The notes beneath the pieces were generated by a model that searched no databases, had not been told where the DNA came from, and was given only the letters and a program-made list of their open reading frames with translations. From positions 1 to 30,595 of the IMG/VR virus record IMGVR_UViG_3300038422_000050: DNA of 30,595 nt, one strand, 5' to 3'. Of the stretch, positions 17,360 to 28,254 are shown one piece after another. Positions within the stretch are counted from its first letter, which is position 1, and every line of letters begins with the position of its first letter. The translations under genes were made by a program, and so were the position numbers. Source of the stretch: a virus.

Positions 17360-17387
17360 CGTGGTGGTGACTATTGTTTTCGATTAC

Positions 17388-18107
17388 ATGCTTGAGCAGT
17401 ATGACTTGATTCACAACACGGAGTGGAACACGCTTATACTCTTAGATGCCTGTCGCTTCGATCTGTTTAAGAAGTTGAATAAGATTCCGGGTAAACTTCA
17501 GGAGGTTCACAGCGAGGGGCACCACACATGGGTGTGGCTCAACAAGACGTTCCCCGGCAAGTACCCGTGGACGTACTTCTCGGCGCACCCATACGTGAAT
17601 GCTGGCTCGGGGCAGAAGTGGAATGCAGTGAATCACTTTGAGAGGATTATCCCAATATGGAGTTTCGGGTGGAACGACAAACTGGGCACCGTTCACCCAG
17701 ACACTGTGGGGCAGGTGGCTAAGAATATCCCCTACGAGAAGGCGATTGTGCATTATATTCAGCCGCATGGACCGTGGATAGGTAAGACGAAGTGGCTTAA
17801 CCCGTGGACGCTCGCCGACTACTCGCGCAGGCAACTCATGGGTGACTGGATTGCTGTTCTGGCGAAGCCCGACCCCGCGTTCTTCAGGCAGTGCTACAAG
17901 GATAATCTCCGGCTGGTGCTCGACTCGGTTGAGAAGTACCTGCCCTTCTTCAGGAGGCCGGTGGTTGTGTCCGCTGATCATGGTGAGTTGTTGGGTGAGA
18001 AGGGGCTGTACCTTCATGGCGCCGTTAAGAAGGAGGATGAACATAAACCATATCCAGTGGAATGTATTGATTTTTTGAGGCGTGTACCGTGGTTTGAGGT
18101 AGAGTAA
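17388..18107 (+). CDS. Sulfatase/alkaline-phosphatase-superfamily hydrolase or phosphotransferase
   Basis: 239 residues from ATG 17388 (a GTG-initiated form would add nine). It begins with TEWNTLILLDACRFDLF, where Asp20 and the following Cys22 match the metal ligand and nucleophile region of sulfatases. Near the C-terminus PVVVSADHGELLGEKGLYLHG supplies the second D-H metal site. In between is IVHYIQPHGPWIG. Length is shorter than full sulfatases, as in the small superfamily members found in archaeal and viral surface-glycan loci. It is the only plus-strand gene between the two sugar clusters. It probably modifies (or strips) a phosphate or sulfate group on a glycan; which one cannot be told. 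Confidence 0.83.
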   Translation: MLEQYDLIHNTEWNTLILLDACRFDLFKKLNKIPGKLQEVHSEGHHTWVWLNKTFPGKYPWTYFSAHPYVNAGSGQKWNAVNHFERIIPIWSFGWNDKLGTVHPDTVGQVAKNIPYEKAIVHYIQPHGPWIGKTKWLNPWTLADYSRRQLMGDWIAVLAKPDPAFFRQCYKDNLRLVLDSVEKYLPFFRRPVVVSADHGELLGEKGLYLHGAVKKEDEHKPYPVECIDFLRRVPWFEVE

Positions 18108-18109
18108 CG

Positions 18110-18114
18110 TTTTT
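18110..18114 (+). terminator. Oligo-T terminator after the sulfatase-like gene
   Basis: Five T residues start three bases after the TAA stop (AACGTTTTTATATTC), the usual archaeal intrinsic termination signal. Two further TTATTTTTAG runs follow at 18131-18140 and 18234-18243, each within an exact 12-base copy of CCTTATTTTTAG. Confidence 0.55.
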
Positions 18115-18148
18115 ATATTCACACAGCCCCTTATTTTTAGTAGTGTAA

Positions 18149-18218
18149 GGTTCGGTATGGTGCGGCCAGGTTTGGTGGGGTTAGGTGGGGTATGGTTGGG
18201 TATGGTATGGTAAGGTTT
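18149..18218 (+). repeat. GGYNN pentamer tract 1 (14 units in perfect 5-base phase)
   Basis: Fourteen consecutive 5-base units, each beginning GG, with T (once C) at position 3 and variable bases at positions 4-5: GGTTC, GGTAT, GGTGC, GGCCA and so on, ending GGTAA GGTTT. There is no slip in phase over 70 bases. It is preceded by CCTTATTTTTAG (18129-18140) and ends in GGTTTAAATAG, a TATA-like sequence. It is non-coding: the frames contain stops, and unit length is not a multiple of three. Not a simple microsatellite because two positions vary freely. Confidence 0.9.
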
Positions 18219-18252
18219 AAATAGTTAACCACCTTATTTTTAGACTATCCGT

Positions 18253-18337
18253 GGTGTGGTATGGCGTGGTTCGGTCCGGTGAGGCATGGTTTGGCACGAT
18301 GCGGTTGGGTGTGGTGAGGTCGGGTATGGTATGGCGA
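18253..18337 (+). repeat. GGYNN pentamer tract 2 (17 units in perfect 5-base phase)
   Basis: Seventeen units, 16 of them starting GG (one GATGC), position 3 always a pyrimidine in the GG units, positions 4-5 variable. A second copy of CCTTATTTTTAG (18232-18243) precedes it by nine bases, so tracts 1 and 2 look like two copies of one module about 103 bases long whose pentamer bodies have diverged while keeping phase. The tract ends 9 bases before the stop of the minus-strand dehydratase gene. Confidence 0.9.
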
Positions 18338-18345
18338 GGGAAACT

Positions 18346-19317
18346 CTAAGTAGAGTGAGTTGCACTACACCAGAACCACTTATTATCCATGAACCACTGG
18401 ATCGTGTCTTTCATGCCCTGCTCAAAACTCGTCTTTGGTTTCCATTTTAACTTGTAAACGAACTTGGAGCAATCTAAGGCATATCGTTCATCGTCTTTGA
18501 GTCGTCTGCCTTTGTAGCCGTCAAACAACTCATGCTTGCCCGTTAAGTCAAGTATTTTCTGTGCTACTTCAGACACAGTGAGGTAATCATCAGGCGGAAT
18601 GTGGTATATTTCTCCGGGGATGCCTCTCTCAGAAAGTAAATCTAATGCCGCACAAACATCCCTCACAAACGCCCACCCCCGCACCGAGTTACCCTCATAG
18701 AGCGTGAAGTGAGTGTCGTTGATACATCGAACAATTATTTTTGGTATAAGTTTCTCTGGGTGTTGGTACGGGCCATACATATTCATACTTCGAGTAATAA
18801 TGACGGGAACCTTGAAACTGTGATAGTATGCGTTGCAGAATGCCTCGGCTGCTGCTTTGCTTGCGCTATAAGGATTTCGGGGGGATAAAACATCGTCTTC
18901 ACGACAGAATTTTTCAGGTACGTCTCCGAACACCTCGTCGGTGCTCATCATTATCATCAGGGGCTTCTCCTCTAGGTGTTTCAGGACTTCAAGTATGGTG
19001 AAGGTGCCGTAGGTATTGGAGTCCAGAAACTCCTTCGGATAGTCGAATGAGCGGTCTACGTGGGTTGAGGCGGCTAGGTGGAATATCTTCTCTACCTTGT
19101 GCTTCTTTATGGTTTCTAGGAGCAGCAGTTCGTCGCGTATGTCGCCCTTCACGGCTACGTAGTTGGGGTTGTCGCTTAACTCTAGTGTGGAGGATGGGTT
19201 GTCGGCGTAGGTGTGTTTCGAGTATCCGATTACCGGGGTGCCCGGATGTGTTTTCAGCAGGTGGCGTACAAGGTTATTCCCAACGAAGCCCGTGCTGCCC
19301 GTAACAATTATGCTCGT
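18346..19317 (-). CDS. dTDP-glucose 4,6-dehydratase-like enzyme (RmlB family), apparent ACG start
   Basis: The body from 19152 has KIFHLAASTHVDRSF, MMSTDEVFGD (catalytic Thr-Asp-Glu), NPYSASKAAAE (YxxxK) and RSMNMYGPYQHPEKLIP, the signature set of RmlB-type dehydratases. The Rossmann start IIVTGSTGFVGNNL is encoded just upstream in the same frame, but no ATG, GTG or TTG lies between it and the preceding in-frame TGA. The best fit is ACG at 19317, exactly where an ATG would give M-S-I-I-V-T-G, with GGAGAGG about 10 bases upstream. With that start it has 323 residues, normal for the family. It converts an NDP-hexose to the 4-keto-6-deoxy sugar, which could feed the DegT aminotransferase. The start overlaps the upstream gene by 10 bases. 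Confidence 0.88.
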   Translation of the reverse strand, partial: TSIIVTGSTGFVGNNLVRHLLKTHPGTPVIGYSKHTYADNPSSTLELSDNPNYVAVKGDIRDELLLLETIKKHKVEKIFHLAASTHVDRSFDYPKEFLDSNTYGTFTILEVLKHLEEKPLMIMMSTDEVFGDVPEKFCREDDVLSPRNPYSASKAAAEAFCNAYYHSFKVPVIITRSMNMYGPYQHPEKLIPKIIVRCINDTHFTLYEGNSVRGWAFVRDVCAALDLLSERGIPGEIYHIPPDDYLTVSEVAQKILDLTGKHELFDGYKGRRLKDDERYALDCSKFVYKLKWKPKTSFEQGMKDTIQWFMDNKWFWCSATHST

Positions 19318-27093: not shown

Positions 27094-27792
27094 TTACGAT
27101 AGGAAGTATGCTAACTCCGTCTTATAGGTATCCTCGCCATAGTCTCCCGGGCCAGTCTCTCCGAGCCGACCGACAACCCCGCCGCTCATCGGGTCGTACA
27201 CCCTCACAGAGAGGTCGGGCATCATGAAGCCGCAGTAACTATGCGCCTTGCTGAGCAGCTTCAGGAACGCCCCCTGGTGGCTCAACCCCGCCCTCCTGAA
27301 CACCTCCTGCACCAGGAATATCGTGGCGTTCGTCCAGTTGTCGCAGTCGTTAACCTCGCTCCGGGGGAACCCGAGCACCCGCTTCACCTCCGCCTGAACC
27401 GGGGTGAGAATCCTGAGCCACTCCTCCTCCGGATACGCCAGGTACTTGTTGTCGCTGAGAAGCTGCGGTCTAACCCCCACCCACTGAGAAGGCGTCATGC
27501 CCCACGGGTCAACAAGAGAGCCGCCCACCGGAGCAATATCAGGAACCTTTATAGCCTTCCCAAGTTCCGCGTAGAACCGCGCCGCGTCAGCCTCAGCGGA
27601 CTCACACCGAGACACAAGAGAATCAGCTAAAGACTGGAGACGAATGCTCTCGGACTCAAAACCGTCCCTCTTCCTCCCACACTCAACAAGGGAGAGAGAA
27701 AGAGACTTAATCTGTTCATCCTGCTGCCGAATCCTCTCATCCTTCAGAGAACCCCCACAGAAAAAAGAGGATAAAGACTCCAGCCAGCCCAA
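27094..27792 (-). CDS. Papain/transglutaminase-like cysteine hydrolase, candidate lysis or exit enzyme
   Basis: 232 residues from TTG 27792 with GGTGG upstream. Residues 15-75 form a coiled-coil-like stalk. The C-terminal domain has NDCDNWTNA with Cys150 flanked by Asp, SKAHSYCGF with His184, and SVRVYDPMSGG with Asp200: a Cys-His-Asp order as in papain-like folds, including the Agglutinin_C group (DCD followed by an aromatic, H-A, then D/E-P). It directly follows a small multi-pass membrane protein in one operon, as endolysins follow holins. Substrate is not evident; some archaeal cell-wall endoisopeptidases are also Cys-His-Asp enzymes, but no sequence match to them is claimed. It might instead be a tail-associated or host-acting protease. 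Confidence 0.72.
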   Translation of the reverse strand: MGWLESLSSFFCGGSLKDERIRQQDEQIKSLSLSLVECGRKRDGFESESIRLQSLADSLVSRCESAEADAARFYAELGKAIKVPDIAPVGGSLVDPWGMTPSQWVGVRPQLLSDNKYLAYPEEEWLRILTPVQAEVKRVLGFPRSEVNDCDNWTNATIFLVQEVFRRAGLSHQGAFLKLLSKAHSYCGFMMPDLSVRVYDPMSGGVVGRLGETGPGDYGEDTYKTELAYFLS

Positions 27793-28097: not shown

Positions 28098-28182
28098 AAA
28101 CCACACCCCGCCACACCACACCAAGCCAAGCCCCACCACACCCCACCCGACCAGGCCGAACCACACCAGACCCCACCTAACC
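28098..28182 (-). repeat. GGYNN pentamer tract 3 (17 units, opposite orientation)
   Basis: Read on the minus strand there are 17 consecutive units without a slip: GG always at positions 1-2, T or C at position 3, and two free positions (GGTTA, GGTGG, GGTCT, GGTGT ... GGCGG, GGTGT, GGTTT). It ends GGTTTAGATA, like tract 1 which ends GGTTTAAATA. It sits directly upstream of a TATA box. Orientation is inverted relative to tracts 1 and 2. Confidence 0.9.
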
Positions 28183-28254
28183 ACAACACACAAACAAACA
28201 CCCCAAAACATAAAAACATTACGCACCCCCCAACCCAATACACACAAACCGCGA

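Follow-up and report, generated by a model that had tools for sequence, protein, structure and literature searches.

GGYNN pentamer tracts in a tailed virus of archaea as likely guide parts of VIPR RNAs

The window analysed here, a 30,595-nt stretch of viral DNA comprising positions 1 to 30,595 of the IMG/VR record IMGVR_UViG_3300038422_000050, contains three tracts of phased GGYNN pentamers which, with high confidence, we take to be the variable guide part of VIPR RNAs (vrRNAs). The tracts are read as guides because they match the form of a vrRNA, their 14, 17 and 17 units being strictly GGYNN with NN free to vary, and because tracts of this class are linked to the vipr gene. VIPR (Viral Interference Programmable Repeat) was described in a preprint from the Doudna laboratory in April 2026 (bioRxiv 2026.04.26.720920; PMC13142463). 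It consists of Vipr, a small Cas7-like RAMP protein with relatives among the CRISPR RAMPs, and of vrRNAs, in which 9–16 YNNGG (GGY/NN) pentamers with conserved GGY and hypervariable NN are followed by an invariant structured 3' tail; the NN pairs read double-stranded DNA with one base skipped per unit, and the system represses competing mobile elements (PMC13142463). The systems, which include an accessory gene called vap, occur mainly in phages, proviruses and archaeal viruses and fall into seven divergent types, and satellites with vrRNAs of their own have been reported (PMC13142463). Transcription, Vipr binding, the skip rule and repression have been shown for bacterial VIPRs, and tracts of the GGYNN type are transcribed and co-purify with Vipr (PMC13142463).

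An initial annotation of the window knew of no described viral element of such form. The tracts very probably belong to this published class, and that claim of novelty is superseded. A puzzling pentamer pattern is now tied to a newly described RNA-guided system, one thought to predate CRISPR, in a tailed archaeal virus.

Three phased tracts and their flanking sequence

The form of the tracts, their phase, their rarity by chance, their non-coding position and their viral archaeal context were observed in this analysis. Tract 1 (18149–18218, plus strand) consists of 14 GGYNN units without interruption, the NN series being, in order, TC AT GC CA TT GG TA GG AT TG AT AT AA TT; its final GGTTT may be part of a 3' tail. 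Tract 2 (18253–18337, plus strand) has 17 in-phase units followed by GGGAA, and is built from nine GGY units, a degenerate tenth unit, GATGC (18298–18302), and seven further GGY units. These two tracts, in strict 5-base phase and with a single GG violation, are as the initial annotation had described them. The scan of the virus for further tracts that it had proposed revealed a third, so that the window holds three and not two: tract 3 (28098–28182, minus strand) comprises 17 GGYNN units with zero violations and lies about 10 kb from tracts 1 and 2 on the opposite strand. It sits upstream of a small minus-strand ORF.

To compare the tracts with shuffled sequence, as had also been suggested, the whole window was dinucleotide-shuffled 300 times, which gave GGYNN runs of at most 5 units, compared to the longest observed run of 17. 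When the local G-rich stretches were each shuffled 2,000 times, runs did not exceed 6 units, compared to the 14 and 17 observed. The earlier proposal of selection on the phase stands. The pattern read backwards had no match anywhere in the window. The argument that the tracts are neither products of slippage nor coding repeats also held: tract 1 has 9 different units among its 14, the nine units before GATGC in tract 2 all differ from one another, and no ORF of at least 80 aa covers positions 18149–18342. This region is intergenic, with a gene at 17361–18107 (plus strand) on one side and an epimerase gene starting at 18346 (minus strand) on the other, and positions 28098–28182 overlap with unsupported ORFs only. 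The gene at 17361–18107, directly before tract 1, resembles by eye an alkaline-phosphatase/sulfatase-type hydrolase (LLDACRFD, SADHGELLGEKG) and has no match in Pfam or PHROG. An Rfam search gave no match.

Each tract is preceded by a TATA-like element that, as judged by reading the sequence, may represent an archaeal promoter: TTTTTATATT (18110–18119, plus strand) ends 29 nt before tract 1, TTTAAATA (18216–18223, plus strand) overlaps the last unit of tract 1 and ends 29 nt before tract 2, and TTTTTATG (28209–28216, minus strand) ends 26 nt before tract 3. The spacings of 29, 29 and 26 nt would fit archaeal promoters with transcription starting just before the first GGY. The exact sequence said to precede each of the first two tracts was found to be CCTTATTTTTAG, which occurs in the window only there (18129–18140 and 18232–18243, both plus strand); tract 3 is without it. 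The T-rich first copy, 8 nt before tract 1, is possibly a terminator of the upstream gene; the second lies 9 nt upstream of tract 2 and pairs with the end of tract 1 as the 3' arm of a weak hairpin (z = 0.1), and is possibly the tail, or a terminator, of vrRNA1. Tracts 1 and 3 have the ending GGTTTARATA in common. The predicted 3' tails of these two fold no better than shuffled sequences (z = 0.1 and –0.5, respectively) and that of tract 2 folds slightly better (z = –1.5), none of the values being significant.

The tract class, its partner protein and possible targets

Scanning the viral contigs of IMG/VR for nine GGY units gave heterogeneous tracts, i.e. tracts with variable NN, in at least 106 loci (106 of the 120 matches listed), and several tracts per genome were common among these. 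The same scan of cellular genome_contigs yielded heterogeneous tracts in 9 of the 120 matches listed. The reversed pattern, GGNNY, was found at 118 loci in IMG/VR, 30 of them heterogeneous, and most of these 30 turned out to be GGYNN tracts with a chance pyrimidine at position 5. Among 50 whole records, all tracts of a record had the same orientation except in two (G015 and G020), and matches to the reversed control were almost nil. A literature search on pentanucleotide repeats in phages found nothing.

Two further arrangements were seen within the class. At L012, L014, L017, L096 and other loci, the 4-nt unit GGCA connects neighbouring tracts, so that guide modules of about 44–69 nt follow one another head to tail with a phase step of –1. 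At L034 (6932–7168, minus strand), guide tracts are interleaved with sequences (GGTTCGACTCC) that look like tRNA 3' halves and may act as a processing signal.

Comparison of all ORFs from the tract loci brought out a single dominant protein family, its members being about 200 aa long; it corresponds to phrog_4652 and is annotated as of unknown function. Using an iterated HMM and loci with tracts of at least 8 units, we found this family encoded in 84 of 115 tract-bearing loci, compared to none of 56 background viral loci. The tract was on the same strand as the phrog_4652 gene in 241 of 241 tracts, a figure that makes the observations look more independent than they are, since co-orientation is frequent among phage genes and the tracts of any one locus are not independent of each other; 200 of these tracts were within 2 kb downstream and 41 upstream. 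One member of the family matched PDB entry 36pp, "SUSP1 Vipr protein", with E = 2.6e-12, and it was this match that led to the VIPR preprint (PMC13142463). phrog_4652 thus gains a likely identity as a Vipr-like family, and GGYNN tracts are genetically linked in other viruses to a gene of the Vipr family. The initial annotation had considered either a repeat-reading protein or an RNA structure (two-tier G-quadruplex, R-loop) as the reason for the pattern; it is the former idea that stands, in the form of a protein reading RNA, given that 84 of the 115 tract loci encode Vipr and given the published system (PMC13142463).

In the Felixounavirus VpaE1 (Felix O1-like group), taken as a positive control, GGYNN tracts flank vipr on both sides and each is followed by a similar tail-like sequence. 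One phrog_4652 member also matches 123 INPHARED records, mostly Felixounavirus-type phages of Escherichia and Salmonella, the others including Gordonia, Mycobacterium and Pseudomonas phages. A search of 394 genomes from the phylum of an archaeal MAG, in which binning errors are possible, gave one genome with a 17-unit tract directly upstream of vipr (E = 1.5e-40) on the same strand, another in which a short contig carries vipr, and a third with a lone heterogeneous tract. As judged by these matches, VIPR appears to exist in archaea independently of the window virus.

For the window virus we infer transcription, the positions of promoters and tails, the partner protein and the targets. The transcript would start slightly upstream of the first GGY, by a few nucleotides, and comprise the GGYNN units followed by a short 3' tail. 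Each subunit of Vipr, a Cas7-like RAMP protein, would then hold one GGY-containing unit and display the two variable bases, and the NN pairs would jointly recognise double-stranded DNA as NNxNNxNN, with one base skipped per unit. The target would be a competing virus or element, the transcription of which would be blocked.

Exact 8-unit cores of all three guides, with 1-nt skips, were searched against IMG/VR. Tract 1 matched 3 contigs, tract 2 matched 48 with its 5' half and 17 with its 3' half, and tract 3 matched 5, with its 5' half only. The many matches to tract 2 arise because its half-patterns are common coding motifs (reverse-strand ISGDTM and SI.RST[HQ]A); the reverse-strand coding pattern of the whole tract is S-I-I-R-S-T-[HQ]-A-V-[NK]-I-S-G-[DE]-T-[IM], to which there were half-pattern matches and none over the full length. 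No convincing target was found in IMG/VR, as the remaining units of the guides agreed with the matched contigs no better than by chance (the best case being 9 of 18 bases, in a pair of similar contigs), and none was found inside the window itself. When 250 guides were compared with a few megabases of loci, skips of 0, 1 and 2 bases performed alike, the sample being without power to discriminate between them.

The window virus, its missing vipr and other readings of the tracts

Genes for terminase, portal, prohead protease and capsid are present in the window, which therefore derives from a tailed virus. The capsid protein is closest to those of haloarchaeal tailed viruses (26–28% identity), the portal protein is 25% identical to that of a Methanofastidiosa virus, and the matches to the terminase include Halogranum tailed virus 1; as judged by these similarities, the virus is one of archaea. 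Scans of IMG/VR with terminase and capsid gave no close relatives.

No vipr homologue was found in the 30.6-kb window, either by a maximum-sensitivity HMM of the phrog_4652-like lineage or by translated search. The main uncharacterised ORF of more than 170 aa in the window (27094–27792) has no match in Pfam or PHROG and no meaningful one in PDB, and no glycine-rich C-terminus of the Vipr type was seen by eye. The record is perhaps a fragment, its Vipr may be a diverged one, or the guides may work in trans.

That the window virus lacks a vipr of its own, its vrRNAs working in trans with a Vipr from the host, from a provirus or from a virus co-infecting the cell, is a tentative variant of the VIPR reading and is compatible with it. 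It would account for the lack of vipr in the window, and among the 21 other tract records in which no vipr lies nearby, 18 gave no vipr match over their entire length, two of these being about 105 kb; the satellites that carry their own vrRNAs (PMC13142463) also speak for it. Against it, the window may be a fragment, given its 30.6 kb and that no tail module was recognised in it, the HMM covers the phrog_4652-like lineage as opposed to seven divergent Vipr types (PMC13142463), and the other orphan-looking records may be incomplete too. These 18 records may be incomplete, may carry Vipr types beyond the HMM, or may be true orphans, and comparison of the ORFs from vipr-less tract records revealed no other shared protein that was an obvious substitute for Vipr. 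The broader proposal that orphan vrRNAs, unaccompanied by vipr, occur in tailed viruses of archaea and in some large viruses infecting other hosts, the guides acting in trans with the Vipr of a host, provirus or rival or with an undescribed Vipr type, we consider rather doubtful. Guides are detectable from sequence alone even where vipr is unrecognised, which raises the question of whether vrRNAs can be stand-alone guides.

Genes for a nucleotide-sugar epimerase and an aminotransferase are common to the window and to the vipr-less records G011 (L024, L441–L445), G028 (L061, L446–L449) and G059 (L117, L458–L459), perhaps a coincidence in large genomes. In the 56-kb record G015 (L031, L450–L452), as in the window, both strands carry tracts and vipr is not recognisable.

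Readings of the tracts other than as VIPR guides fare considerably worse. It is very improbable that they are a DNA-level array for a sequence-specific DNA-binding protein, such as a partition, packaging or replication site. A GG contact every half helical turn, as suggested in the initial annotation, is possible in principle, but GG spacing does not predict a pyrimidine at position 3. Among 2,000 interior positions, each flanked by three good units per side, GG was kept at 1,876 and a pyrimidine followed at position 3 in 1,847 of these 1,876; the 124 breaks of GG were mostly single-base and preserved the phase, like GATGC in tract 2. The agreement in strand between tract and vipr (241 of 241) and the transcription of homologous tracts and their co-purification with Vipr (PMC13142463) also argue against a DNA-level array.

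Two-tier quadruplexes with 3-nt loops could form where GG recurs every 5 nt, and G-rich structural elements of this kind, or R-loop formers, would be compatible with the spacing. They would leave unexplained both the position-3 pyrimidine, as no GGR tract of nine units occurred among the 120 listed loci, and the genetic link with Vipr, and we find them hardly credible. A chance relic of pentamer microsatellite slippage can be dismissed almost entirely: simple GGYNN-type microsatellites do exist in cellular genomes, where they make up most of the matches listed, but the units in the window are heterogeneous, its three strictly phased tracts have lengths never approached in shuffles, and the tract class co-occurs with vipr.

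Comparison with known systems

TRAP-type RNA consists of 11 NAG triplets with 2-nt spacers. It shares with the tracts a triplet plus a free dinucleotide and a 5-nt period, whereas the triplet is another one and the protein to which the tracts are genetically linked is Vipr and not TRAP; a TRAP-like ring protein had been considered as the reader of the tracts and was dropped after the link with Vipr emerged. Class 1 CRISPR crRNAs on a Cas7 (RAMP) backbone resemble VIPR in having a RAMP-bound guide with periodic interruption of pairing, as argued in PMC13142463. In contrast to VIPR tracts, their period is 6 and not 5, and no CRISPR repeats, contiguous spacers or cas genes were recognised in the window.

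The closest likeness is to the vrRNAs of phage SUSP1 and the Felixounavirus phages. The window differs from these systems in that no vipr was recognised in its 30.6 kb, in that its tracts are separated by 10 kb and occur on both strands, in that two of them have 17 units as opposed to the 9–16 reported (PMC13142463), and in that its putative promoters, read from the sequence, are of archaeal type. In common with them, it has strict GGY/NN pentamers with variable NN, located between genes and present in several tracts per genome, in a tailed virus.
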